Shown here piece after piece: positions 3,904 to 29,559 of a DNA stretch of 49,711 nucleotides. Made by a program: the position numbers and the translations under genes. The stretch lies in the IMG/VR virus record IMGVR_UViG_3300046373_000072, positions 1 through 49,711 of that record. One strand, given 5' to 3'. Within the stretch, counting starts at the first letter, position 1, and each line of letters opens with the position of its first letter. The notes beneath the pieces were generated by a model. The model was not told where the DNA came from. It saw only the letters and a list, made by a program, of their open reading frames with translations, and did no database searches. The stretch is from a virus.

Positions 3904-3980
3904 TTGAGAACAAGAGTGAGGATTTATAGCAGGCATGATAAACTTTATTGAGAACGAACAGAATTAATAATACATTCCAA

Positions 3981-4003
3981 GTCCTCCCCAAGAGGGCTAT
4001 TTT
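3981..4003 (+). terminator. Intrinsic terminator before the protease gene
   Basis: GTCCTC-CCCAA-GAGGGC (one G-T pair) followed by TATTTT. It would insulate the protease gene at 4020 from upstream transcription, or act as an attenuator in its leader. The 3904-3980 stretch is AT-rich and may hold a promoter, but no convincing -35/-10 pair was seen. Confidence 0.65.
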
Positions 4004-4019
4004 GCGTTGGGAGGGGCAT

Positions 4020-4751
4020 ATGAAAAAGATTATTTTAATACTCATACTGTTCCTCACATTCAGCGAAACAGCCCATGCGATAACCATACATAAATCTTAC
4101 TCAGGGACAGGCGAAGAACTTGTTATCCTGGACACAACCAATGGACAGATGGCATTCACCAAAGAGGAAGCCGCTAACATCGAGAAGTTAAAGAAGCACA
4201 CCGTAATCGTGATAGAACTGGACTCGGATGGTCGACAGTATAAAGCTGCAGGAATTGCCATTGATAAGCGGCACATATTAACCGTGGATCACATCATATC
4301 GAACAATAGCAAAAACTATTACGCTGAACAAGAAGGCTCACCCTCGTATTGGGCAACCGTGATCAAACAGGATCCCAAACACGACATCGCTATCTTAGAG
4401 ATAGAGAGCAGCGCACCGGACCTAATAGCCGAGTCATTACCTTTTGCCAAGGACATACAGCGTAAAGAGAGGGTATACACCATTGGTCACCCAAAGAAAA
4501 CCACATACCAGTTAACATCCGGTAAAGTGAATCTACTGATGGAAAAAGGGTACAACGACATAGAAAGTATGCAATTGGATATCTGCATCAAAAACGGCAA
4601 CAGTGGGGGATTCGTGATCAACGGTCAAGGTGAAATCGTAGGAATGATCTATAGCGTAGCCGAGCATATTGGGAATATCGGGTACATGATTGGGACCGAG
4701 GATATACAAAAGTTTTTAAGGAGTGGAAATGATGCAAATATCCATGAGTAA
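4020..4751 (+). CDS. Secreted trypsin-like serine protease (S1/V8-like)
   Basis: 243 aa. ATG 4020 follows GGGAGGGG. Residues 1-20 are a clear signal peptide (MKKIILILILFLTF...AHA). The catalytic triad of chymotrypsin-fold proteases is visible and intact: His in LTVDHI (about 91), Asp in KHDIAILEI (about 122), Ser in GNSGGFV (about 195). The product is probably exported and cleaves extracellular or surface proteins. Morphogenesis proteases are not normally secreted, so a moron (host-benefit or host-surface) role is more likely than capsid maturation. It sits directly before the packaging genes and overlaps the next gene by 20 bases. Confidence 0.85.
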   Translation: MKKIILILILFLTFSETAHAITIHKSYSGTGEELVILDTTNGQMAFTKEEAANIEKLKKHTVIVIELDSDGRQYKAAGIAIDKRHILTVDHIISNNSKNYYAEQEGSPSYWATVIKQDPKHDIAILEIESSAPDLIAESLPFAKDIQRKERVYTIGHPKKTTYQLTSGKVNLLMEKGYNDIESMQLDICIKNGNSGGFVINGQGEIVGMIYSVAEHIGNIGYMIGTEDIQKFLRSGNDANIHE

Positions 4752-5405: not shown

Positions 5406-7117
5406 ACGAACTTAAACGACTCATTGATGACAACAAACTATACTTTTACAAATGCCTAAAGATACGCGACAAAGGGAGCAACATCGTAGCATTCACTACA
5501 AACGATTCACAAGATAAGCTATTGAAGATCATCGAGGATCACGAAGCCAAGTACCCCGATGAAGTTACAAGACCGACATTATATATTATCATCCTTAAAG
5601 CCCGTCAGTTAGGTTTCTCAACCGCGACTGAGGGCATTTTCTTTAAAAAACTTAACTTTGGTTTTAATAAGGTCGCTATGATTGTTAGTTTTGACGAGGA
5701 TTCAGCCGTTACGATTAGCGACATGGCAGACCGTTTCTATAAATACTTACCGCAAGTCATTAAACCAAAGCGCAGACCATCGAGGGGAAAAGGAATCTTA
5801 TTTGAGAATCCAAGGTTCGATGATTCAATTCCGATTAGTAAAGACAACGATCCTGGACTGCAAAACAAATTCTTGGTTGAGACAGCTAAGAATCTGAACG
5901 CAGGATCATCGTACACAATCAATTATCTGCACATATCGGAGTTAGCTAAGTGGGACAAGCCTGAGGACACAATGACATCTATAATGCAATCTGTGCCGGA
6001 CTTTGGAGCAATCGTCATTGTAGAGTCCACAGCCAAGGGTATGAATTACTTTCAAGAGCTATGGGATAACAGTGAGCGAGGATTAAATAATTTTGTGCCG
6101 CTATTCGTAGCGTGGTTTGAGAATGACAAATACCGTTCACCTTACACCGGATTTGATTTAACTGAGTATGAGCAAGAGATCAAGAACACATATAAGCTTG
6201 ACAATGACCAATTGCAATGGCGCAGAAACACCATCAAGGATAAGCTCAACGGTGACGCTAATGTATTCAAGCAGGAGTACCCTTGCTGCCCGGAAGAAGC
6301 ATTCCTGACAACGGGTACACCGGTGTTTGATAATGAGATTGTCATTAAACGTATTAGGAAGCTGGAAGAACGTCCTAAAGGCGTGAGAGGGCATCTAAAG
6401 TACATTGGAGAAGTAAAGGAACTAACCTTCATCCAAGATGATAACGGCTATCTCACAGTGTACCAGCATCCGCAGAAGGATCACTTTTATGTAAGTGGTA
6501 ATGACGTTGCCAAGGGTGTGGAAGGTGGAGACTTTGACGCTGCTCCTGTATTGGATGCTCACAGTCTAGAACAGGTCGCATCATTCCACGGCCATATGAA
6601 TGTTGATATTTACGCAGATGAGCTTTATAAGCTTGGCATGTACTACAACAAAGCTTTATTAGGTCCTGAAGTTAACTTTAATCCCGGTCTTGTACTCAAC
6701 CTAGAAAAGCTCAACTATCCTAATATCTACATGCAACAGCAGATGAACACCATTAGCAAGGATATTAGAATGTCCTTTGGCTGGACAACCGGCATGACAA
6801 ACCGCAACGCGATTATAAGCGAGTTGGTGGAGTATGTGAGAGAGCATTCACACTTAATCCATGACATTATGTTTCTGAGAGAGTGCTTGACGTTCATCCA
6901 CGACAAGCAAGGTAAGCCCATAGCGATGAATGGCAAGAAAGATGATCGAGTGCTTGCTTATGCTATTACATTGGCTATACGAGGTCAACAGTCCACTAGA
7001 GCACCTAAGACAGAGTTTAACATCAGCAACCTAGCACCAGATGTACAAAGCGATTACAGACGCGCCAGTGAGGAAATGAAAGCACTCATGAGGCAGAAAT
7101 GGGGAATGACGGGATGA
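5402..7117 (+). CDS. terL: Terminase large subunit
   Basis: 571 aa. The ATPase that drives DNA into the prohead, with a nuclease that cuts concatemers. Visible motifs: Walker A-like KARQLGFST (about residues 66-74), Walker B-like strand YLHISEL, coupling motif IVIVESTAKG. RuvC-type nuclease acids lie in GNDVAKGVEGGDFD and DDRVLAYAI. Length is usual for headful-type large terminases. Overlaps both neighbours by 4 bases. Confidence 0.93.
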   Translation: MNELKRLIDDNKLYFYKCLKIRDKGSNIVAFTTNDSQDKLLKIIEDHEAKYPDEVTRPTLYIIILKARQLGFSTATEGIFFKKLNFGFNKVAMIVSFDEDSAVTISDMADRFYKYLPQVIKPKRRPSRGKGILFENPRFDDSIPISKDNDPGLQNKFLVETAKNLNAGSSYTINYLHISELAKWDKPEDTMTSIMQSVPDFGAIVIVESTAKGMNYFQELWDNSERGLNNFVPLFVAWFENDKYRSPYTGFDLTEYEQEIKNTYKLDNDQLQWRRNTIKDKLNGDANVFKQEYPCCPEEAFLTTGTPVFDNEIVIKRIRKLEERPKGVRGHLKYIGEVKELTFIQDDNGYLTVYQHPQKDHFYVSGNDVAKGVEGGDFDAAPVLDAHSLEQVASFHGHMNVDIYADELYKLGMYYNKALLGPEVNFNPGLVLNLEKLNYPNIYMQQQMNTISKDIRMSFGWTTGMTNRNAIISELVEYVREHSHLIHDIMFLRECLTFIHDKQGKPIAMNGKKDDRVLAYAITLAIRGQQSTRAPKTEFNISNLAPDVQSDYRRASEEMKALMRQKWGMTG

Positions 7118-7303: not shown

Positions 7304-9382
7304 ATGGGAATGAAGGATGTGGTGAAGCGAGTGAAAAAGGCAATGAAAGCATATGCAGCACCGCCGAGGTCAGAAGAGCTGATAAAGTGGCAGAAGCGAC
7401 TAGAAACCGCTAAAGCTGGTCAAGACTTAGGGCTTATGGATAAGCGTGAGTTTCTCTACATGGGTGATCGCAGGGTTGATAAGAACATAAACGACACCAC
7501 GAACCCATCCAAGATGGCGAACAACATCTGGAACATCGTGTATGAGTTCATCGAGAGCCAAGTGAGTTCACAGATACCCATGCCACAGGTGAAGAGTAAG
7601 CGTGAAGAATTCGAGCTGCAGGCCCAAATGATCGCGGAGTCCATTGCCAACGACTTGAAAGAGTCCACCATTGACGAAATCAACGATATGAACGAACGGA
7701 TAACCCCATTGCAGGGGTTTTCTTTAGTTGAGGTAGCATGGAACCCTGACTTTAAACATCACCTATACCGTGGCGAGATCGAGTTACACGGTAGGCACCC
7801 GAAACAGTTTGTGGGGCAGCCTAAAGTGTACAACTTGCAGAAGATGGATTACTTCTTCATCCTCTCCGATGTGAGCCAAGAATACGTCATGAGGCGCTAT
7901 AAGAAGAACCTCACAGGTGAAGAGGAACAATACCCCGAGAATACCAGGCTATTTGACGATGGGCTACTTTCAACCAATGGAGTTACACAGCGTTCAGGTG
8001 GCGAAGAAGATGAAGAACCACTAACCGAGATTGTGTGCTGGTACAAGGACGAAGAAGGCGACTATGGCAAGTTTGTATGGATCAACGATATTGAACTTGA
8101 AAACCTTCCACAATACTTCTACCGCAGAATTAACGGCAAGATTCAAACTGAGGAAACCTTGCAAGAGGACGTAATTAGCGTCATTGATGGTTCAGTAATT
8201 GCTTCCGCTGGAGAAGTCGTGCCTTACTTTGTGCCGCAACGGTATCCAGTGAGTGTAAGGATCAACGTGCCTCGTAACTTTGCCTTTGGCGGTCAATCCG
8301 ATTTAGATGTGATTAGAGATCAACAGGACAGCATTAAGCGTGTCGTTCACAAAATGGAGGAAAAGCTAGTCAAGGGTGGATCCATCATCAAAGCGCTGGA
8401 CACTCACAATACCTTTGTCATTGACGAAACGATTAATCAGATCATCCGAGGTAGTCAGCAAGAGTTAGCCGCTATTGGTGTGGAGAACCTTGTTGCAGAC
8501 ATCTCAGCAGACATTGAGTACGTCCGAGAACAGTATCGCATGGCTCAGAGTATGTTAGGCATCACCAACTCATTCCAAGGCAAGGAAGACACTACAGCGC
8601 AGTCAGGCAAGGCAAAGCAAATACAAGTACAGCAAGCTTCCGGACGCATGCAGTCGAAGCAGTTTAACAAATACGTGCATTACAAGGAGATATTCGAGAT
8701 CATCTTCGAGTTTAAATTGGCTCTGTACGATGAAATCAGACCTTACCTAGCCCAAGACGCCAATGGTCAAGACACCTTTGGACAGTTTGACAAGTATCAG
8801 TTCTTACAAAGGGATAAAACAGGCAAGTTGTACTACAATACGGACTTTATCTTTGGTTCAGATGGCTCAATGGGACTGCCGAAAGACCCGATGTTCCTCT
8901 ATAACCAAGCTTTAGCGCTCTTCCAAGCGCAGGCGATGGATGCACAAGCCTTATGGACATTGTTAGAGTCACTAGACTTCCCTCAAGCGGCGAAGATTAA
9001 GAAGCAAGTCATGGATAAGATACAACAGCAAGCACAGCAAGCAGATTTACAACAGCAGATTCCACAGATGCAACAGCAATATGAAGAGAAGATTCAGCAG
9101 GACCAGCAAGAGATTGAAGTGTTAAATGAAATGGTCAAAATGCTCCATGAAGCCGTACAAGAGGCGCAGCAGGGAGATATGCAGGCGATGAATGAAACGC
9201 TCAAGCAACTGGAAGAAGTCCAAGCTAAGGAACATCAGCAAGGCTTAGAGATGCAGAAACAGCAAATGGCGCAAGAACAGCAGGCGCATGGGCAGGAAAT
9301 GGATAGGCAGAAGTTGGAGATTGAAGCACAGAAGGTGCAAACAATGGGACAACGCCAGGCAGTGGGGAGTGGACAGGAGTGA
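7304..9382 (+). CDS. Portal protein
   Basis: 692 aa. Large portal of the podovirus (P22/T7-like) size class, forming the dodecameric DNA channel at the head vertex. Support: place right after TerL, the central portal-like region (SVRINVPRNFAFGGQSDLD, then IRDQQDSIKRVVHKMEEK), and the long Gln/Met-rich C-terminal helix (about residues 560-690), like the barrel extension of P22-type portals. AGGTGA precedes the ATG. The family is inferred from features and context, not from an alignment. Confidence 0.85.
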   Translation: MGMKDVVKRVKKAMKAYAAPPRSEELIKWQKRLETAKAGQDLGLMDKREFLYMGDRRVDKNINDTTNPSKMANNIWNIVYEFIESQVSSQIPMPQVKSKREEFELQAQMIAESIANDLKESTIDEINDMNERITPLQGFSLVEVAWNPDFKHHLYRGEIELHGRHPKQFVGQPKVYNLQKMDYFFILSDVSQEYVMRRYKKNLTGEEEQYPENTRLFDDGLLSTNGVTQRSGGEEDEEPLTEIVCWYKDEEGDYGKFVWINDIELENLPQYFYRRINGKIQTEETLQEDVISVIDGSVIASAGEVVPYFVPQRYPVSVRINVPRNFAFGGQSDLDVIRDQQDSIKRVVHKMEEKLVKGGSIIKALDTHNTFVIDETINQIIRGSQQELAAIGVENLVADISADIEYVREQYRMAQSMLGITNSFQGKEDTTAQSGKAKQIQVQQASGRMQSKQFNKYVHYKEIFEIIFEFKLALYDEIRPYLAQDANGQDTFGQFDKYQFLQRDKTGKLYYNTDFIFGSDGSMGLPKDPMFLYNQALALFQAQAMDAQALWTLLESLDFPQAAKIKKQVMDKIQQQAQQADLQQQIPQMQQQYEEKIQQDQQEIEVLNEMVKMLHEAVQEAQQGDMQAMNETLKQLEEVQAKEHQQGLEMQKQQMAQEQQAHGQEMDRQKLEIEAQKVQTMGQRQAVGSGQE

Positions 9383-9534
9383 ACTGGGGAGTATATGAAT
9401 TTCCATGGGGAACAGCAGTAAGAAATGAAGCTACCGGCGAGTGGACAACAGTCATTAAATCGCCCGATGGCGAAATAATCAACGTTGATGGGTTGGACGT
9501 ACAAGTCACTGACGAGGGAGTTGTATTCGATTGA
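9379..9534 (+). CDS. Small hypothetical protein
   Basis: 51 aa with a GTG start overlapping the portal stop (GTGA) and ACAGGA upstream. Sequence WGVYEFPWGTAVRN...VTDEGVVFD, acidic and beta-like. Overlaps the next gene by 4 bases. Unknown role in the head gene cluster. Confidence 0.6.
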   Translation: MNWGVYEFPWGTAVRNEATGEWTTVIKSPDGEIINVDGLDVQVTDEGVVFD

Positions 9535-9767
9535 GCCAAGAAACGGCCTTAGAAGAAACTAACGGTAGGATTCAGGAACTTCATGAACTGTCATTCCTCA
9601 TGCTTGAAGAAAAGAACAAAGGCGCGGAGACAGTTCCCATGCAGGAATACGAAGAATTGTTAGACCATTACATTAAATACATCCAAGACATGAGAGATGG
9701 AATTTTGGAGTATGGAGACAAAGTATATTGCAGTAAGTGTGCAGAAGAAATGAAAGGTGGCGATTAA
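9531..9767 (+). CDS. Small helical protein with CxxC
   Basis: 78 aa. TTG start overlapping the upstream stop (TTGA), with GAGGGAG 13-19 bases before. Acidic helices followed by YCSKCAEEM, a single CxxC that could bind metal as a dimer. Function unknown. Confidence 0.6.
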   Translation: MSQETALEETNGRIQELHELSFLMLEEKNKGAETVPMQEYEELLDHYIKYIQDMRDGILEYGDKVYCSKCAEEMKGGD

Positions 9768-9884
9768 ATGAAATCGACCCGAGCAAAGCCAACTGGAATG
9801 GATAAGAAACTACAACAGGCAATGGGCGTACCGGCTCCAAGCATGATAAAGGGTAATACGGGTAAGAAGAAACCAAAAAAATAA
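9768..9884 (+). CDS. Small basic protein
   Basis: 38 aa, starting right after the upstream TAA, with AGGTGG upstream. Lys-rich (MKSTRAKPTGMDKK...GKKKPKK) with a PSMIKG segment that resembles QGMIKAP in the 46-aa protein at 10248. Both could be small capsid-associated peptides; this is a guess. Confidence 0.5.
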   Translation: MKSTRAKPTGMDKKLQQAMGVPAPSMIKGNTGKKKPKK

Positions 9885-9897
9885 GGTGGTGATTTAT

Positions 9898-10170
9898 ATG
9901 GAAAATTTAGAAGTTTACGCACATATCCACAACGGCGGCGTATCATTTGAGGTAACGAATGAACGAGGACCGACAATTGAAATTAAAGCCAGTCATTTTG
10001 GAAATCAAACCAATCACATTAAACTGCATGTTGACGTAGATGTGTTGAAAAATTTAGCAGACATGTTCTATAAAGCTTCGACTGCTGAGTATTCAGAAGA
10101 ATATGTATGCGCCGCTAAAGTTCCTGATAAAAGCATTGGCGATTCACAAGGTGCAATAGAAAAAACATAG
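9898..10170 (+). CDS. Hypothetical protein
   Basis: 90 aa from ATG 9898 (AAGGTGGTGAT upstream). Alternating beta pattern (VYAHIHNGGVSFEV, IKLHVDVDVLKNLADM). Not recognised. Followed at once by a strong terminator, so it ends the first packaging transcript. Confidence 0.65.
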   Translation: MENLEVYAHIHNGGVSFEVTNERGPTIEIKASHFGNQTNHIKLHVDVDVLKNLADMFYKASTAEYSEEYVCAAKVPDKSIGDSQGAIEKT

Positions 10171-10179
10171 CTTCAAATC

Positions 10180-10210
10180 AGGACATTCCAAGTCGTTGGG
10201 TGTCCTTTTT
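10180..10210 (+). terminator. Intrinsic terminator
   Basis: Stem AGGACA/TGTCCT with an inner CCAA-GTCG-TTGG stem, followed by TTTTT. Well formed. It may lower expression of the scaffold/coat genes from the upstream promoter, or act as an attenuator. Confidence 0.85.
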
Positions 10211-10247
10211 CTATGCCAATTTGGGCAACTCGAAAGGTGGTGAGAAC

Positions 10248-10388
10248 ATGGCTAAAGACGATAGCAACGGCGGTGGAGGATACAAAGTACCATCCACAAG
10301 TCAAGGGATGATCAAAGCACCTAATACCATCATTAAGAACCAAACTACGCCTAAGAAAACTACAGGTGGCGATTTAAGAAGCAAGTAA
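10248..10388 (+). CDS. Small Gly/Lys-rich protein
   Basis: 46 aa after AAAGGTGGTGAG. Low complexity (DSNGGGGYKVP, TTPKKTTGGDLRSK), probably disordered and basic. It lies just before the scaffold gene. Possible minor capsid or scaffold-associated peptide; unproven. Confidence 0.5.
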   Translation: MAKDDSNGGGGYKVPSTSQGMIKAPNTIIKNQTTPKKTTGGDLRSK

Positions 10389-10430
10389 AATTCGCGTGGG
10401 ATCGTAGTAAAAACCCAAAGGAGACTATAT

Positions 10431-11408
10431 ATGGACCAAATAAGCCGCAAAACGGGAAATGTCGCTGCCTTCCCATTGAAATTAGATCTACAACTTTTCG
10501 CAGATGATGGAGAAACGATTCCTGACCTTGAAAGCACACCGGAGTACATAGAGGATTCGAAAGAATTCACTCAATATGAGACGAAGGTGGCTAAGGCTAC
10601 GGCTGAGTTAAAAGCCAAGGAAACGCCAGTGACTGTGGAAAAACCCGTTGAAAAAGAGCCTGACAAGGTGGAAGAAGCCGTAAAACAGGAAGTCGCGACC
10701 CCTGAGAAACCGAAGCAGGATAAAGAAACAAACGATGCATTCCAAGAGCAACGCAAAGCTCGTGAAGCAGCCGAAGCCAAGGCATCTGCTTTAGAAGAGA
10801 AGGCTAAGAAAGCTGACGAGTTAATCTCTAAGCAATGGGGGCATTTAGGTGTCCACACGGTTGAACAGTATGAACAGCGCTTACAGCAAGAACAAGTCGA
10901 AGAAGATAACGAACGTTACACAAAGGCAGGACTTACGCCGCAAGAGATTGAAAAGCTGCGTAAATTCGATGAACTAGCCGAAGCGACCGAAACAATTACA
11001 AAGGTGCAACAGCAAGAAGCATATTTGTCGAGTTGGAAACAGCTTTACAATTCCTACCCTGACATTGAAGCGTCGGCGCAAGTATTCAACGAGGGAAAAG
11101 AACCTGAGTGGTATAACGCTGAGATGAAAGCAGAGATTGCCAAAGGCGCGAGTCCTTTAGCGGCCTATCGCAATGCTCACTTTGAAACCATTATCGCCAA
11201 TGCCACAAAGGGAACGAAGGAAGCAGCCAAGCAAGAAGCGCTCAACCAATTGAACAGCAAGGACCATATCAAGGCTAATGCTACGATTGGCGGCAATGTG
11301 GACCACGTAGAGATTAGTGCTGAACAAATGATGGCCTACCGTAAATTAACTGGGCAAAGTGATGCCGAAATAAGGAAGTTCCATAAAAAACAATTAGCAG
11401 GAGGTTAA
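10431..11408 (+). CDS. Probable capsid scaffolding protein
   Basis: 325 aa. The N-terminus has PLKLDLQLFADDGE, a segment often found at the start of Firmicutes phage scaffold or coat proteins. Then a Glu/Lys/Ala-rich coiled coil (about 45-160) and a basic C-terminal helix (AEIRKFHKKQLAGG) that could bind coat. Order scaffold, decoration, coat is the usual one. AAAGGAGA lies upstream of the ATG. No protease domain is visible. Confidence 0.75.
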   Translation: MDQISRKTGNVAAFPLKLDLQLFADDGETIPDLESTPEYIEDSKEFTQYETKVAKATAELKAKETPVTVEKPVEKEPDKVEEAVKQEVATPEKPKQDKETNDAFQEQRKAREAAEAKASALEEKAKKADELISKQWGHLGVHTVEQYEQRLQQEQVEEDNERYTKAGLTPQEIEKLRKFDELAEATETITKVQQQEAYLSSWKQLYNSYPDIEASAQVFNEGKEPEWYNAEMKAEIAKGASPLAAYRNAHFETIIANATKGTKEAAKQEALNQLNSKDHIKANATIGGNVDHVEISAEQMMAYRKLTGQSDAEIRKFHKKQLAGG

Positions 11409-15658: not shown

Positions 15659-16399
15659 TTGAAACGATACAATCTTATTGAAGCAAGGATTAAAATGGAC
15701 TTAACGCAAGATGCAGTTGGCGAGTTACTTTCTATAAAAAAGTCGGGGTATCAACTAATTGAGTCAGGAAGAAATTCAGTAAAATTAGAGTATCAAGAAA
15801 TTCTTGAAAAACACTTCAATATACCGAAAGAAAAACTATTTCTTTTGATAGATTCTCCTGAGAATAGAATGAAAAACAACTATGAAATACGCGGAGAAAT
15901 AACTGTAATATTCATTCGGAGAAAAGATGGAAGTGTGATTGAAACAATTATTGACACTGAGGACTTGGAGTTAGCCAAAAACATATTTGGTAGATGGTCT
16001 GCTTCAAGAGGGAAGACCGAAAGAAGTTCATTATATGTGGCATGTAACTCACTTGTAAAAGGGGTTCAAAAACCTATATCCCTGCACCGATTAATAATGG
16101 GAGATCCTCAAGGGATGTTGATAGATCACATAAATCACGACACACTAGACAACAGAAAAGCTAATTTAAGAATTGCAACCTACGGTGAAAACAGACAGAA
16201 TTTAAAACAGACACACTCAGCATCAGGGATTCGAGGAGTGTATTGGAGCAAGTTGTTAAAAAAGTGGCAGGCCAAAATGAGATTGAATAAAAAAGTATAT
16301 GTAATAGGATATTACGATGATATAAAGGATGCTGAAATTGCAGTAAAATCTGCAAGAGCCAAATCAATGCCATATTCACAAGAAGCACTCGCTAACTAG
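15659..16399 (+). CDS. XRE-HNH-AP2 homing-type endonuclease
   Basis: 246 aa with a TTG start after GGAGGTG. Three parts are visible: an N-terminal XRE helix-turn-helix (MDLTQDAVGELLSIKKSGYQ), an HNH_3 nuclease (SLHRLIMG, IDHINHDTLDNRKANLR), and a C-terminal AP2-like DNA-binding domain (GIRGVYWSKLLKKWQAKM, YDDIKDAEIAV). HNH-AP2 proteins are known selfish homing nucleases; the added XRE domain is less common. It has its own promoter and terminator inside the connector/tail operon and is more AT-rich than its flanks, as expected for an invader. Confidence 0.88.
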   Translation: MKRYNLIEARIKMDLTQDAVGELLSIKKSGYQLIESGRNSVKLEYQEILEKHFNIPKEKLFLLIDSPENRMKNNYEIRGEITVIFIRRKDGSVIETIIDTEDLELAKNIFGRWSASRGKTERSSLYVACNSLVKGVQKPISLHRLIMGDPQGMLIDHINHDTLDNRKANLRIATYGENRQNLKQTHSASGIRGVYWSKLLKKWQAKMRLNKKVYVIGYYDDIKDAEIAVKSARAKSMPYSQEALAN

Positions 16400-20352: not shown

Positions 20353-22608
20353 ATGCCAACAATTGATGAATGGCTACAGGCACGAAGAAATGACAAGTCC
20401 ATACCTGGTGGCATGACGGACGCGCAAAAGGGAATAACTGTGCCGACGAATCCAACATTAACGCCCAATTACACGCAACCTAAAACAGCGACTCCTTCAA
20501 GTGGGGGGTACGCACCTACACCAATAGGAGCACCATTAAATCCGGCTTATATGCAAACTGTAGCACCAAAGACAGCCGCGCCTGTGATGGGAAGTACAAC
20601 TGCATCCGTTGCCCCTAAACCTCCTGTTTCGACACCTGCGCCATCAAGCCAAAGCTCAAACGGTCAGCTGACACCCGAACAATTGCAGGTGTTCCTCTCT
20701 CTGCCTGAGTCTGCAAAGGCTTCTTATGTGACCGGTCTGATGAGTTCCGGTGGCATGAAAATGACACCAAATGGAGGAACTTCACCAAGTACAGGCAATG
20801 TCGCTCCGGTTCCTCCTGTTCCTTATGTGAAAAATCCGGAAATCGATAAATTAAGCAGGGACCAGCAATTAGCTTATTACGCCGCCAATCCGACAGAAGC
20901 AAAAAATGAGATTGCACGTGCTAAGGATGTGTGGAATAGCACCACAGACCCAACAAGAAGGCAAGGAGCCAACGAATGGGCAGATGCATTACGTCAAGCA
21001 GCTGGAATCAACATGGATGATGCCAACTATGGCAACGGGCAGAGTTCAACCTCAACCGGTGTTTATGCGCCACAGAACCCAACGCTAAATAGCGCTACAG
21101 GACAAACAAGCGGAAATCCCATTGGTCAACCTACTGGTCAGACAGGAGGTCAAACAGGAGGTCAGCCAACAGGTCAAACAGGCGCAACGCAGGGTAATGG
21201 TCTGTATAAAGACCCATATGCTAGAAACGATTCAGACATTGCAGCACTCGCCAAAGCTAGAATCGATAAAATCCTACAGGCTGGTCGTACAAGCGCGCAA
21301 GGAAGCCTTGCAAGCGCCAGAAATGCATTTGATTACACAAAACAAATCACAAACGATAATAGGACCTTGCAAACGGGATTATTTAACGAAACAAATAACC
21401 CATTCAGTGGGAAAACCACCTATGACAAAGCTATGATGGAGCGTAACCGTTCAATAGAGGATACGGCAACGAATAAAGATTACAACGCCAATGTAGCTCA
21501 GATTCAGCAAAAACTAGCGGATCTAGAGTCTGCGGCGCCGGGTGATGAACAACAAATCATTGATGACCTCCGGCAAATGGAACGACAATTTGGAATCAGT
21601 GTTGCACAGTTACAGGAACAGCAAAAGAATAACCAATTCAACCAAATGGACGCTAATCGTAAATTTGATTATGGTGTTGGTCAAGATCAAATTAGAAATG
21701 ATATCGCTAAAGCTGGATTAACAGGTAATTACCAAGATTCTGCACAGGTAAATACAGTGAAAAAACAAATGGCAGCAAATAGCGCTGCGTATGCTTCGGC
21801 TACTCCAGCGGAACAAAAGCGGCTACATGACGAAAATGTAAGACTTGCCGAATCTATTGGAGGTATGGATACAACAGGAAGTGGGGATTACAAGTTTGGC
21901 CAAGGTCAACGTACATTAGCTGGGCAAACTTTAGACTTAAACAACGCTAAAGATAACCGTGATTTCCAATATCAAACTGTACAAGATGCAATTAAAAATG
22001 GCATGTCTCAACAACAAATTGATAACTCAGCTAAACAATTCGCGCAACAAATGGGTTATAACTATGACAATATGAACGCGAATGATAAGCAAGCATGGGC
22101 GCAAATTGCAATTAGTCAGCAAAATGCGAATACATCATCAGATAATGCAAATTGGTCTAAAGACCCAACTAACCCGGACAACATCTATAAAAATGCGCAG
22201 ATTCAATCTCTAACAACTAAAGGAGATCAGAAGCTCCAAGATGAGTCTAAAGGGCTAGTCGAAGCGTTACGCGGAGGTAAAATGACACCTGGTGCAGCCG
22301 TACAACAAATTGATGAGGATATGAATCTTGGTTTCTACACGAAAGAAGAAGCGGCACATTTAAAGAGTATCATCACTACGATAACTCCTAATCTACCCGT
22401 TTCCGCGAATCAGCAACAATTAACACCGGAACAACAAGCCGCGATACCTTCTAATGCTGAATTGGACAAACTATATAAGACAGAAGGAAACGGCGCACCT
22501 TTCTTAGATTGGAAATCGTGGTATAAGGATCCTAAAGGGAAATCGGCCGGAGTCAACTTTGCAACTTGGAAACAGTTGTATGGTCCAACTCTAAGCGCGG
22601 GAAAGTGA
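20353..22608 (+). CDS. Large virion protein with a disordered N-terminus; frameshift donor
   Basis: 751 aa. Residues 1-110 and 200-275 are Pro/Thr/Gly/Gln-rich, including short repeats of the GQTGGQPTGQ type; the rest is Gln/Asn-rich helix. No catalytic motif. It ends GCG GGA AAG TGA. The heptamer G GGA AAG is a canonical -1 slippery site in the right phase and is followed by a hairpin, so part of the product is probably extended into the peptidase ORF at 22605-22925. Probably a tail-tip or ejected protein. Confidence 0.8.
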   Translation: MPTIDEWLQARRNDKSIPGGMTDAQKGITVPTNPTLTPNYTQPKTATPSSGGYAPTPIGAPLNPAYMQTVAPKTAAPVMGSTTASVAPKPPVSTPAPSSQSSNGQLTPEQLQVFLSLPESAKASYVTGLMSSGGMKMTPNGGTSPSTGNVAPVPPVPYVKNPEIDKLSRDQQLAYYAANPTEAKNEIARAKDVWNSTTDPTRRQGANEWADALRQAAGINMDDANYGNGQSSTSTGVYAPQNPTLNSATGQTSGNPIGQPTGQTGGQTGGQPTGQTGATQGNGLYKDPYARNDSDIAALAKARIDKILQAGRTSAQGSLASARNAFDYTKQITNDNRTLQTGLFNETNNPFSGKTTYDKAMMERNRSIEDTATNKDYNANVAQIQQKLADLESAAPGDEQQIIDDLRQMERQFGISVAQLQEQQKNNQFNQMDANRKFDYGVGQDQIRNDIAKAGLTGNYQDSAQVNTVKKQMAANSAAYASATPAEQKRLHDENVRLAESIGGMDTTGSGDYKFGQGQRTLAGQTLDLNNAKDNRDFQYQTVQDAIKNGMSQQQIDNSAKQFAQQMGYNYDNMNANDKQAWAQIAISQQNANTSSDNANWSKDPTNPDNIYKNAQIQSLTTKGDQKLQDESKGLVEALRGGKMTPGAAVQQIDEDMNLGFYTKEEAAHLKSIITTITPNLPVSANQQQLTPEQQAAIPSNAELDKLYKTEGNGAPFLDWKSWYKDPKGKSAGVNFATWKQLYGPTLSAGK

Positions 22609-22628
22609 CGGGCCCTTCAGGACAGGGC
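22599..22628 (+). promoter_or_regulatory. Probable programmed -1 frameshift signal
   Basis: Slippery GGGAAAG at 22599-22605 in zero-frame phase, the stop TGA at 22606-22608, a 6-base spacer, then a GCCCT/AGGGC stem (22612-22616 with 22624-22628, 7-base loop). The downstream ORF is open in the -1 frame. GGGAAAG is the heptamer used at the lambda G-GT frameshift. Product would be 857 aa. Confidence 0.75.
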
Positions 22629-22925
22629 ACAAGAAAACCTGGCTCCGATTCTTTCCTAGAAGATATGGCTAAAAAGATGGGACTAACTCCAACAAGTGGA
22701 TTACGGACGGATGCAGATGTTAAAAAAGGTATTGGCTATTCAGGCGATGATCATCACAAAGGAATTGCGGAAGACTTCGCTGGATCAGTCAAAGATATGG
22801 ATGCATTCGCTCAAGCTGCTTTAAAGAGCGGTAAATACAATAAAGTGATTTACAAAGGTAAAAACCTGGTTACAGGCAATCCGGTAGACGGTCACTATGA
22901 CCATGTACATGTAAGTTGGGGGTGA
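22605..22925 (+). CDS. M15-like peptidase domain (virion-associated lysin)
   Basis: 106 aa from GTG 22605; in frame with the upstream protein only by a -1 shift. An open TTG at 22566 also exists but neither start has a good ribosome site, which favours frameshifting. Motifs: PTSGLRT, DDHHKGIAEDF and HYDHVHVSWG, the metal-binding His/Asp pattern of M15/VanY-like peptidoglycan peptidases. Role: local cell-wall cutting at the tail tip during entry. The next gene begins 5 bases after the stop. Confidence 0.75.
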   Translation: MTGPSGQGTRKPGSDSFLEDMAKKMGLTPTSGLRTDADVKKGIGYSGDDHHKGIAEDFAGSVKDMDAFAQAALKSGKYNKVIYKGKNLVTGNPVDGHYDHVHVSWG

Positions 22926-22929
22926 GTAA

Positions 22930-25752
22930 ATGCCATTCGCACAATATAAAAACGGTGGGACCTCCAATAGTAAATGGGGGTCCTCTTCTTCTGTTAATAC
23001 AGATCCATATTCCGTGGATAAATTAACGCAACAGATTGATAACGCGAATGTTCGTATCAAGGATGCAGGATTTGCTCCACAAAACACGGATAAACGGAAT
23101 GGATTTGAAAAATTTCTGAACCTTCCTCAAAATCAGAATTGGTTTTTCGATACCTTGGAAGTCCTCGGAAGACCTGGGAATGCCGTAAAAAATGTGCTGG
23201 ATAAAGCAGTCGGTACTGGTGCAAAGGAAAGCATAGGAGAAGCTGCCTTAAAAGGGATCTCAGGTAGAGAAAAAGTATCCGGTGCACAGATGGTCAAAGA
23301 TCACTTAGGCATAGAAAACGGATTCAGCAAGTTTCTACTCGGTACCGCTTTAGATATCGGGACCGACCCTTTAACCTTTGTCCCTGGCGGTGTACTTGCT
23401 AAAGGTGTAACTGCACCAGCCAAGTTAGCCGGTAAAGCCGTTAAGGGTGTCTACAATGCCACAGAATCCCTTGTACCGGGACTTAAGACATTACGTGAGA
23501 CTAAAATAGAACCAGCCTTACAGAGCGCTAAAGACGGTCTGGGCTATGCCTTCAATCCGAACTATAAGATTGACGAAACCTTAAACGGTGGAAAGAGCAC
23601 AGCCTTACAGGACCTTTCCCAATCTACAGATAACAGCCGGGCGTTTATGCAAGAGGAAGCGATGAAGAACCTTGCGAATACGGCTAAGAGTGCCGGAGGA
23701 ATAGATACAGGGGTTAATGTTGGCCGCGTTATGGAAGCACCTTTAAAACAGTTTGACAGTCAATACAATTTATTGGATGGTTCAGTCACCGACAATGCGG
23801 ATGAATTGAATCGCCTGATTCAAGATCGTTATGCGGCCATCAGAACAAATCCTGTTCCCGAAGTGGTGACAAAATTAAGGAGCGAGATTGATCAACTAAA
23901 ATCAAATATTCAAAATCCGATCCAAACGGAACTTCCTCGTCCCGTTCGGGATATGCCAACTGATCCTAAAATTCAACAGGCCGCTAAAACGTTAGTGGAA
24001 AGTAACAATACAATTCGAGAGTTTGCAGTCGATAATGGGATTGATATACCTGCTATGGAAGGCTACATGACACACGTATGGAGTCAAGCTGAAAGGGACG
24101 CAAGGAAAATCAATAAACCAGTTAAAATTGATGCAGGCGCTTTTGGTCAAGGGAATCCGAACAAAAACATTTTGAAACAGCGTGAATTAATGGGTAGCGT
24201 CGAAGATATCAACGATAAAATAGGCAAACCGAAGTTCGAACCGAATGCTTACTTCGCATCGGGAATTGGTCAGAAAAGGTTAATTGATTATGTACATGCT
24301 GTGAAATTGCGAAAAGAAGTATTACAGAATCCTGATTTTTCTGTTCCGTTTATAAAAGGGATGGACGTACCTAAAAACGCAGAGGTAATTGACTCCAATA
24401 ATTACACGTTCCTCAAAGAAAGCGGAGATGCATTGGATGGTATTGTCCCAACGGAGAAAATAGGAGGTCAGTACATCGTCACCAAACAAGCTAAGATGGC
24501 GCTGGACCGTTATCAAAAGCTGAACACAGATGAAGGTACTAAAGCTTTCTTAAAGGCATTTGATGGCATACAGAGCCTCTGGAAGAAGGGTGCTCTATTT
24601 TCACTTGGATACCATTTCCGCAACCAAGCAGGCGCCACATTCAACAACTATGTAGCTGGTATGAACACCTTAGATTTAGCCAGGTACACACCGGAAGCTT
24701 TCAAAGAGGTTTCCAAGTCCATAAGCGGTAAAGAGTCAGCTTTATTTACGGAATACCGCAAGCAAGGTTTAGGATCGAACACCTTATCTCAAGTGGAATT
24801 TGCCAAAGTGGGTCAAGAACCGGAGCAGGCGATTCAAAAAACAGTTGATAACATGAGTAAGGATACGAAGGGGCAGATTAAACAGCGGTTGAATCCGCTC
24901 AATGCGTTCCAAACTTCGCAGGAAGTCGGTAATTTCTTCGACCAAGCCAATCGTTTTGCGCTATACAAATGGGCGAAAGATAAAGGGATGACACCCGAAC
25001 AAGCTGCCGCCAAGGTGCGCGAAGTTCAATTTGACTACTCTAAGACTACTCCATTTGAAAAGAATATCGCTACTAGGGTGTTCCCTTTTTATAGATGGAT
25101 GCGGAATAACATTCCCTTTCAAATTAAAACATTCATCAACGATCCACGGAAGTATGAGTACCTGAATAAAGCCCGCTTAAATGCGCAGGAAGCCGTAGGA
25201 CTCAACGAAAACAACATTCCGGATTATATGAAGGAACAGTTTGCAATACCTCTGTACGGTCAAAATGGGAAGGGTAAAATGTTAGGCCTGAACTTACCTT
25301 TGACGGACCTGACCAAACTATCCAAGCCAGGTAAAACACTGGTCGATGCGGTAACACCGTTAGTGAAAACACCAGCGGAGTTAGCTCTGAACTACAATAC
25401 TTTCTTTGGCAAAAAGATTCAGAAATTTGATGGTGAGCAAAAACAATATCAAATTCCTTATACGGATATCGCTTTTGGGGTACCGGTTAAAGGAGCGTAT
25501 GCATTTGAACAAGCAACGGGGCAGATTGGTAGGGGTTTTAGTGGATTCTTGCAGAAGCCAGATACCAAAGATCAAGACATTGTAAACCGTCTACCTTCAC
25601 TAGGTATATCTTCACTGACTAAGCCTTTTGACGCAGAGAAATATGCTTATTATGAGAAGTTAGATCAACTCAAACAGTTGCAGGATTTGATGCTATTTAT
25701 TCAGCAACAGACTGGGGAAAAACCGAGGACGTTGAATCAAATTAAGCGTTAA
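22930..25752 (+). CDS. Large internal virion / ejection protein (probable)
   Basis: 940 aa, the largest protein in the window. Helical and basic, with hydrophobic patches (GFSKFLLGTALDIGTDPLTFVPGGV; ALFSLGYHFRNQAGATFNNYV; RVFPFYRWMRNNIPFQI) that could act in the membrane. Proteins of this size and type after the tail genes of podoviruses are usually packed in the head and ejected with the DNA. No lytic transglycosylase motif was seen. The stop overlaps the minus-strand ORF at 25749. Confidence 0.6.
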   Translation: MPFAQYKNGGTSNSKWGSSSSVNTDPYSVDKLTQQIDNANVRIKDAGFAPQNTDKRNGFEKFLNLPQNQNWFFDTLEVLGRPGNAVKNVLDKAVGTGAKESIGEAALKGISGREKVSGAQMVKDHLGIENGFSKFLLGTALDIGTDPLTFVPGGVLAKGVTAPAKLAGKAVKGVYNATESLVPGLKTLRETKIEPALQSAKDGLGYAFNPNYKIDETLNGGKSTALQDLSQSTDNSRAFMQEEAMKNLANTAKSAGGIDTGVNVGRVMEAPLKQFDSQYNLLDGSVTDNADELNRLIQDRYAAIRTNPVPEVVTKLRSEIDQLKSNIQNPIQTELPRPVRDMPTDPKIQQAAKTLVESNNTIREFAVDNGIDIPAMEGYMTHVWSQAERDARKINKPVKIDAGAFGQGNPNKNILKQRELMGSVEDINDKIGKPKFEPNAYFASGIGQKRLIDYVHAVKLRKEVLQNPDFSVPFIKGMDVPKNAEVIDSNNYTFLKESGDALDGIVPTEKIGGQYIVTKQAKMALDRYQKLNTDEGTKAFLKAFDGIQSLWKKGALFSLGYHFRNQAGATFNNYVAGMNTLDLARYTPEAFKEVSKSISGKESALFTEYRKQGLGSNTLSQVEFAKVGQEPEQAIQKTVDNMSKDTKGQIKQRLNPLNAFQTSQEVGNFFDQANRFALYKWAKDKGMTPEQAAAKVREVQFDYSKTTPFEKNIATRVFPFYRWMRNNIPFQIKTFINDPRKYEYLNKARLNAQEAVGLNENNIPDYMKEQFAIPLYGQNGKGKMLGLNLPLTDLTKLSKPGKTLVDAVTPLVKTPAELALNYNTFFGKKIQKFDGEQKQYQIPYTDIAFGVPVKGAYAFEQATGQIGRGFSGFLQKPDTKDQDIVNRLPSLGISSLTKPFDAEKYAYYEKLDQLKQLQDLMLFIQQQTGEKPRTLNQIKR

Positions 25753-25958: not shown

Positions 25959-26120
25959 TTGATTGAATTTGACCCATGCGAATATTCACAATCTGCCTGC
26001 ACCGACGATGAGCTGCGTGACATTCTCATGCTATGCGGACCCAAGGTAAAGGATTTACTGCTCCTGTGCGTGGAGGTGCAACATGACCCTATTCTCACTC
26101 CTGCTACAAAGCTGGGATGA
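25959..26120 (+). CDS. Small Cys/Leu-containing hypothetical protein
   Basis: 53 aa with a TTG start 11 bases after AAGGAG; the ATG at 25952 gives only four codons. Sequence begins with DPCEYSQSACTDDELRDILM. It overlaps the next gene by 38 bases and lies at the head of the lysis cassette. No family recognised. Confidence 0.5.
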   Translation: MIEFDPCEYSQSACTDDELRDILMLCGPKVKDLLLLCVEVQHDPILTPATKLG

Positions 26121-26670
26121 AATCCTAAGGTTCGCCAGCGACCTACATAATACCGGAGTCAGCTGGGGAGCCGTAATAACCGCGATTATCTTCTGGGGTA
26201 AGCTTAACCGCAATAAAAAGTATCACGAGCGCGATAAGCGCATTGAAGAAAGAACAACTCGGACGGAAGCAAAAATTGATGCCATTATGGAGAAAGTGGG
26301 TGTAGAGTGTGCAAACTTGAAAGTTACCGACACTTTAGCAGGGAATACCAAAATGTCCTCTACATCGCACTCGGTGGGCATATCAGTTGTCCGTATTGCA
26401 AAACGATTCACAAATTACCTTATTGGGGGGAAAACGATTATGGAGAAGTTGAAATCACGGAAGTTATGGATGGCGCTATTAGCGGCGGTGTTACCTATCA
26501 TTAATACTGAATTTGCTCTAGGATTGGACACCAACTCCGTCTTAGCGGTCATAGGCGTTATTGCTACCTACATCTTAGGACAAGCTCACGTTGACGCGAA
26601 GAAAGAGCAGAATGGGGGTATAGTCGATGAGCTTGCGAAACCTACAGATACCTCAATCAGCACTAAATAG
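26083..26670 (+). CDS. Membrane protein with holin-like C-terminal half
   Basis: 195 aa after GGAGGTG. Residues 20-40 have a hydrophobic stretch (VSWGAVITAIIFWGKL) followed by a charged helix. The C-terminal half begins MEKLKSRKLWMALLAAVL (ATG 26440, with GGGGGG 9 bases before) and has two hydrophobic segments, like small holins of Bacillales phages. So either one long protein or two proteins from an internal start. The junction around 100-118 looks unlike either part. An overlapping ORF (26307-26504, with a CPYC motif) shares this region. Confidence 0.6.
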   Translation: MTLFSLLLQSWDEILRFASDLHNTGVSWGAVITAIIFWGKLNRNKKYHERDKRIEERTTRTEAKIDAIMEKVGVECANLKVTDTLAGNTKMSSTSHSVGISVVRIAKRFTNYLIGGKTIMEKLKSRKLWMALLAAVLPIINTEFALGLDTNSVLAVIGVIATYILGQAHVDAKKEQNGGIVDELAKPTDTSISTK

Positions 26671-27379
26671 TCTGGGTTGTAAACAGATCATTGATGTTGT
26701 GGACCAGCTGCCGGTTAATCCTAATTACACATGGGAGCAACTTGCCGGCCGCCGCGATATCAACGATTTAACAACCATTGGTCTGCATCATGACGATTAT
26801 CCAAAAGCGAGTAGGGCAAAGTGGAGCGACATTGATTTTATGGTGGATGTGGCCAAAGATCATATCAAATTGAAAAAGAATGAAAAGCTCGGTGATGCAG
26901 GATTCCCTTATCACTTTTGGATCAGGAACGGTCAAGCCTACCAAACGAATAATGTCCTAGACCGCACCTATGGTATCGGCAGCAATAACGGGTACATCGT
27001 TCACATTTGCGTATCAGGCCGGTATACAGTGGATAATTTAACCGATGAAGACCGTAATGCGCTGCTAGGTGTGATGTATGCCCTCACAGTGGAGTTACCG
27101 GCTTATAAAGAGGTAAAAGGGCATTGTGAGCTTAATCCGACTGCATGCCCAGTTTATAACTATGTAGGGATTCGTGAGGATTTAAAGAAGTTTCAACTTG
27201 AAATGAAAGCCGCCGCAGACCCTTCCCAAATCAAAGTGAACGCCTACAAAGCTACCGAACAACACCGATACCTGTACAATCAATATATCGCGGATCCGGT
27301 AGCCAATAAGTGGCTTGAGCCGTATTTGCTTAAGATGGATGAAGTCACAAGGGATATGGGTATGTACTTCGGTCAATAA
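26627..27379 (+). CDS. N-acetylmuramoyl-L-alanine amidase endolysin
   Basis: 250 aa after GGGGGT. Amidase_2 family: zinc ligands in IGLHHDD (first His), and GHCELNPTACP (second His and the acid/Cys pair) are visible. Role: cuts the peptidoglycan amide bond to lyse the host. The C-terminal 60 residues lack a recognised cell-wall binding repeat. It overlaps the holin-like gene by 44 bases, the standard lysis order, and is followed by a strong bidirectional terminator. Confidence 0.88.
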   Translation: MSLRNLQIPQSALNSLGCKQIIDVVDQLPVNPNYTWEQLAGRRDINDLTTIGLHHDDYPKASRAKWSDIDFMVDVAKDHIKLKKNEKLGDAGFPYHFWIRNGQAYQTNNVLDRTYGIGSNNGYIVHICVSGRYTVDNLTDEDRNALLGVMYALTVELPAYKEVKGHCELNPTACPVYNYVGIREDLKKFQLEMKAAADPSQIKVNAYKATEQHRYLYNQYIADPVANKWLEPYLLKMDEVTRDMGMYFGQ

Positions 27380-29485: not shown

Positions 29486-29559
29486 CGGGTAGTGGCTCAG
29501 CTTGGTAGAGCGCACGGCTGGGGGTCGTGAGGTCGCAGGTTCGATTCCTGTCTACCCGA
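29486..29559 (+). tRNA. tRNA-Pro (anticodon GGG)
   Basis: 74 bases forming a full cloverleaf: acceptor CGGGTAG/CTACCCG, D-stem GCTC/GAGC, anticodon stem CACGG/TCGTG with loop CTGGGGG (anticodon GGG, Pro), T-arm GCAGG-TTCGATT-CCTGT, discriminator A. CCA is not encoded. It lies 20 bases from the 3' end of the integrase gene. It may be a phage-carried tRNA or a tRNA used and restored as an attachment site. Confidence 0.9.

Follow-up and report, generated by a model that had tools for sequence, protein, structure and literature searches.

A candidate −1 frameshift site joining wall hydrolases to a putative virion protein in phages of Bacillus/Paenibacillus-type hosts

How is a peptidase made from an open reading frame that lacks a good start of its own? 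The question is raised by a 49.7-kb virus record with terminase, portal and capsid genes, the whole of which is called the window below. On its plus strand, the reading frame of an M15-like peptidase lies in the −1 frame at the very end of a long gene, and a preliminary description of this DNA had proposed that a frameshift fuses the two products.

The junction in the window

The 0-frame gene (20353..22608, + strand) encodes a Gln/Asn-rich putative virion protein of 751 aa, the predicted short form. Its 3′ end reads, in frame, CTA AGC GCG GGA AAG TGA, with the TGA stop at 22606-22608. It had been called a tail protein, a label that is unproven: no significant family match was found, and an internal or ejection protein is equally likely. 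The slippery heptamer G_GGA_AAG (22599..22605, + strand) sits exactly in phase and abuts the stop, as had been claimed; GGGAAAG is present four times on the plus strand of the window, and only once directly before a stop. In E. coli, G_GGA_AAG is highly shift-prone (PMC5009743), and GGGAAAG is the site of a capsid frameshift in phage Privateer for which virion mass spectrometry gives support (PMC7881722). The likeness to the lambda G-GT site noticed earlier is also correct, G_GGA_AAG being common to the lambda gpG/gpGT system.

Past the heptamer come a 6-nt spacer that includes the TGA (22606..22611, + strand; mostly 4-7 nt in relatives) and a candidate stimulatory hairpin (22612..22628, + strand) of 5 bp with a loop of 7, in which 22612-22616 (GCCCU) pairs with 22624-22628 (AGGGC). 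The GC-rich hairpin of the preliminary description is thus found where it was placed, 6 nt past the heptamer, but it is weak: a 29-nt fold gives −7.6 kcal/mol with z −1.15, and once 40-101 nt are folded it has no advantage over shuffled sequences.

The −1 frame extension (22605..22925, + strand) is 106 aa long and consists of a linker, VTGPSGQGTRKPGS, followed by the M15-like peptidase (HxxGxAxD ... HYDHVHVSW); it would form the C-terminal part of a fusion with a predicted length of 857 aa (751 + 106). Its translation from 22605 is VTGPSGQGTRKPGSDSFLEDMAKKMGL...HHKGIAEDF...HYDHVHVSWG, ending at 22925, and the next gene begins at 22930. The −1 frame overlaps the 0-frame gene, being open 69 nt upstream of the 0-frame stop. 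For a separate protein, the best starts would be GTG 22605, which overlaps the TGA, and ATG 22665; a clear ribosome site is present at neither, and the absence of a good start for the peptidase stands.

The identity of the extension was then considered. It matches PHROG 8240 (baseplate spike) at 1.1e-12, and the zinc-site motifs HxxGxAxD and HxH can be read in its sequence (HHKGIAED, HVH), but with Pfam Peptidase_M15_3 (PF08291) it scores 13.5 bits, under the 23.2 cut-off. A weak sequence match to PDB 9flh (E 0.03) has the same motifs. A viral scan with the peptidase returned a T4-like baseplate domain (L002) as its sole result, which carries similar motifs. No matches were obtained by tblastn in phages with either the peptidase or the 751-aa protein, nor when the DNA of the region was compared with phage records, and a PDB profile search with a two-sequence alignment gave chance matches only. 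An AlphaFold model of the peptidase was of low quality (pLDDT 53.5), a PDB fold search with it gave no meaningful match, and the model was left out of the evidence. The earlier assignment is kept in the form that motifs and PHROG match allow: by its sequence, the extension appears M15-like, short of a proven M15 member.

The conserved protein encoded next downstream (22930..25752, + strand, 940 aa), which adjoins the 751-aa protein, has a counterpart in L036 that carries LPD38. Further on lies a lysis module with a holin-like protein (26083..26670, + strand, phrog_9987) and an amidase-type endolysin (26627..27379, + strand, phrog_1493 and phrog_35436), distinct from the virion-type hydrolase upstream. 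Elsewhere in the window we observed, before the terminase genes, a trypsin-like serine protease whose start resembles a signal peptide (3948-4751; PF13365, 4.8e-20), an HTH and HNH endonuclease-like gene inside the structural gene cluster (15659-16399; PF13392, 4.8e-7), and a single tRNA-Pro (ggg) gene (29486-29559). In a related phage, L025, an O-antigen ligase (9321-10625, − strand; PF04932, 2.5e-20) is present within the structural module, and a multi-pass membrane protein resembling it is likewise within the structural module of L003 (2867-4072).

Junctions in related phages

Relatives were gathered via the 940-aa gene, which served as anchor, among virus contigs and Paenibacillus-type genomes. 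Most of them have no extension, and the next gene comes immediately after a homologue of the 751-aa protein whose C-terminus is either at the same position or a different one. Same-place endings are found in L004 (...QFGPRM*), L012 (...LYGPRLTQG*) and G415 (...YGPRLGG*); TGA 22606 is therefore where the protein naturally ends, and the peptidase has been added to it. The extension is patchy in this clade, being present in 2 of about 12 relatives. Seven records were searched for SLT domains, and none was found in the window or in six relatives that have no SLT extension.

The locus L024 is a prophage in a genome that belongs to the same taxonomic order, probably Paenibacillales. Its homologous C-terminus is encoded by ...AGC GGG GGA AAG TAA, and the −1 frame carries an SLT transglycosylase domain (33.6 bits with PF01464, above the cut-off of 21.3). 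Heptamer and phase are those of the window, the enzyme differs, and TAA replaces TGA, so the GTG reinitiation codon is gone. Moreover, the −1 frame of L024 is closed 9 nt before the 0-frame stop; a slip can therefore fall only on the heptamer.

Searching virus contigs with the SLT domain of L024 yielded 30 loci. In most of these, the SLT domain starts in the −1 frame at the precise point where an upstream ORF of 450-616 aa ends, with GGA AAC TGA or GGA AAG TAG at the junction, each preceded by G. A second scan took the large downstream protein (PHROG 9854; LPD38-bearing in L036) as its anchor, and hence did not select for hydrolases: of the 17 loci where the upstream ORF could be read, all 17 had a −1 extension. 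The resulting set comprises 35 distinct junctions, isolated Pagevirus phages among them, behind homologous or syntenic carrier genes, and a wall hydrolase is in the −1 frame at all 35.

Conservation of heptamer and phase in related phages had been put forward as a check, and the rule does hold, with varying letters. A canonical X_XXY_YYZ heptamer is found 0-3 codons before the stop at 30 of the 35 junctions (directly before it at 23), compared to 33 of 18,778 in-phase codons (0.18%) in the rest of the same ORFs, where GGGAAAC or GGGAAAG in phase accounts for 2 codons. Six heptamers are in use: GGGAAAC, GGGAAAG, CCCAAAC, GGGTTTT, AAAGGGG and AAATTTT. When the 0-frame proteins were clustered at 50% identity, 10 of 12 clusters had a canonical heptamer, and at 35% identity, 6 of 6. 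Since the junctions are related by descent, these counts are not independent and no single probability is quoted. At the five junctions with no canonical heptamer, L038 and L056 (TTT CAG TAG) and L068, L072 and L074 (TCG GGG GAG TAA), P-site re-pairing would be the only possible shift.

At most junctions a stem begins 4-7 nt past the heptamer, and most fold energies range from −12 to −23 kcal/mol; L040, L057, L058 and the window are exceptions with weak structure. The complementary arms are exchanged between junctions (AGCCCCAC/GUGGGGCU, AGCCCCUC/GAGGGGCU, GCCCCGG/CCGGGGC, AGCUCCGG/CCGGAGCU, CCUCCGC/GCGGAGG, and GCCCU/AGGGC in the window). This covariation was assessed by reading the stem arms by eye rather than by pair counting, because loop length varies.

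Six hydrolase arrangements occupy the same site: M15-like (the window), SLT type A (which also scores as an aggregation-promoting-factor C-terminus), SLT type B (91 bits), glucosaminidase (PF01832, 43.8 bits for a cut-off of 30.2), VgrG3-like muramidase (PF21277, 145 bits), and NlpC/P60 + SLT. The carriers of L075, with the VgrG3-like enzyme, and of L041, fused to an SLT domain, are 65% identical over ~605 aa; the enzyme was thus swapped behind a conserved carrier. At 11 of the 35 junctions, the −1 frame lacks any ATG, GTG or TTG between its upstream stop and a point 150 nt beyond the 0-frame stop, which is already inside the catalytic domain; a separately started protein is therefore impossible there with the common starts.

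The large downstream protein also led to the finished genomes of the Pagevirus phages Page, Pascal and Palmer, whose morphology is that of podoviruses (PMC4319499). The upstream protein, of 417 aa, ends TCG GGT TTT CTG GGG TAG, with the heptamer G_GGT_TTT, and the −1 frame encodes NlpC/P60 and SLT domains. In the annotation this −1 half stands alone as a "lytic tail fiber protein" with late TTG or GTG starts, which lie at 4585 in Page (L083), 4454 in Pascal (L084) and 4486 in Palmer (L085), with 3-nt ribosome sites. In Page, the annotated start (Page_19) falls after the NlpC/P60 cysteine, which is cut off. From these sequences, we re-read the "lytic tail" gene as the putative −1 half of a fusion. 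The genome announcement of Pascal does not mention a frameshift, and keyword searches of those of Palmer, Pavlov and Page found no mention of one.

Probable frameshifting and its alternatives

Taken together, the sequences make it very probable that a programmed −1 ribosomal frameshift operates at the window junction. At GCG-GGA-AAG-TGA, most ribosomes would stop and produce the 751-aa protein, while on G_GGA_AAG a minority would move back by one base, to GGG AAA, and read GTG ACG GGC..., giving the 857-aa form. The slip is probably aided by the hairpin and by the slow stop codon. Both forms would enter the virion, where a small fixed share of the protein would bear the wall-peptidase domain, and the enzyme would open a hole in the peptidoglycan during DNA entry. 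We infer the slipping itself, its rate, the virion location and the role in wall penetration. Virion products, an ejection-type carrier and wall opening at entry are argued from four things: synteny with a large neighbour whose counterpart in relatives bears LPD38, the fact that Pagevirus phages are podoviruses in morphology, the presence further downstream of a lysis module of its own, and what is generally seen with virion hydrolases.

Another way to translate the peptidase would be termination followed by reinitiation, which would give a separate protein from GTG 22605, by a GTGA overlap, or from ATG 22665. Stop-start overlaps are common, and the window has one (GTG/TGA). Yet L024, with AAG-TAA, offers no start codon at this position, and the first one it could use is inside the domain; the 11 junctions without any start codon also speak against it, and a ribosome site needs no X_XXY_YYZ, while this rule is kept as the letters change. 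Reinitiation is already refuted in the relatives and is unlikely in the window. A different objection is that the true gene is continuous, the frame break being an assembly artefact or a mutation in a decayed gene. The window is one metagenomic record and no near-identical second genome was found, which leaves no replicate against a local sequence error and was counted against the frameshift reading; some relatives do have continuous ORFs. Against this, the identical −1 break occurs in 35 distinct sequences, finished phage genomes included, and the 0-frame stop is the natural C-terminus of the relatives devoid of extension. Error or decay is already refuted for the group as a whole, and we give it very little credit at the window.

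The continuous ORFs deserve attention, as relatives of this kind had been named beforehand as evidence that would count against a frameshift. At four loci, L041, L043, L059 and L060, the hydrolase is indeed fused in the same frame, so the joined protein exists as a gene. All four nevertheless keep an in-phase slippery heptamer, with a −1 stop within 3-8 codons of it. In L041 (6958-7000), TCG GGA AAC is kept in front of a 10-bp hairpin of −19 kcal/mol, and ribosomes slipping by −1 would terminate at GGG AAA CTC GAA TAG. L043 (6991-7020) keeps GGA AAC, and a −1 slip would terminate at CTT CAG TAG. L059 and L060 (~6960-7001) have GCG GGA AAA AAG GGG in frame, where three slippery heptamers overlap, and a −1 TGA follows within a short distance. 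With heptamer and early −1 stop retained, these loci do not read as mended errors. The simplest reading of their sequence is that a slip would give the short form, and that both forms are needed.

It may finally be proposed that the hydrolase ORF is a relic of module exchange which is rarely if ever translated, and that the heptamer is inherited and unused. The patchy presence of the extension in the window's clade would fit such a history, but the catalytic domains are open and conserved across six hydrolase arrangements, and the rule persists while heptamer letters and hairpin arms vary; we regard this proposal as scarcely credible. Returning to programmed frameshifting, we lean, for the group as a whole, towards a frameshift "socket" that is conserved where one ejection/tail-module gene ends in podoviruses of Bacillus/Paenibacillus-type hosts, into which unrelated wall hydrolases would be plugged. 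Selection would then act on a fixed short:long ratio rather than on the frame, the slip making the long, enzyme-bearing form in some phages and the short form in the four loci with inverted frames.

Relation to known systems

The lambda gpG/gpGT tail assembly chaperones share with the present junctions the heptamers G_GGA_AAG and G_GGA_AAC and the −1 direction. Here, unlike in lambda, the site is not upstream of a tape measure gene, the carrier is not a chaperone, and an enzyme domain is added instead of a chaperone T domain. The window itself, with a 751-aa gene, a hydrolase extension and a conserved 940-aa protein next, is not organised as a G/GT chaperone locus. The T7 gene 10A/10B pair and the phiEco32-like capsid frameshift of Privateer are closer in that they occur in podoviruses, with a heptamer near the gene end and a minor virion form, but they extend the major capsid protein, without an enzyme.

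C-terminal virion domains added by frameshift are known, as Ig-like domains (T3, Lactobacillus phage A2, Listeria phages) and as T7 10B (PMC5009743). Like the extensions described here, Ig-like extensions of capsid and tail proteins produce a minor, C-terminally extended virion protein by recoding at the gene end, and are patchy, in frame in some cases and frameshifted in others. The difference is that the added part here belongs to several unrelated families of wall hydrolases, and that the carrier is a putative podovirus ejection/tail-module protein. Virion hydrolases encoded in frame (the SLT of T7 gp16, tape-measure SLT domains, the Pagevirus "lytic tail" as annotated) involve the same enzyme families and likely the same local wall opening at DNA entry, but without recoding. 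In E. coli dnaX, the slip yields the short product. From their sequence alone, L041, L043, L059 and L060 would be dnaX-like, the 0-frame giving the long form and the −1 slip the short one.

In the freely available journal papers that the search covered, there was no report of virion hydrolases added by frameshift. As far as we found, hydrolase addition to a virion protein by this means would be a widespread but unreported use of recoding. It would explain hydrolase ORFs without start codons and correct gene starts in finished genomes, for instance that of Page_19. The set of junctions would offer a natural series for studying selection on a ratio rather than on a sequence. If the frameshift reading is true, it is the ribosome that sets the dose of a wall-cutting enzyme in the virion of these phages.
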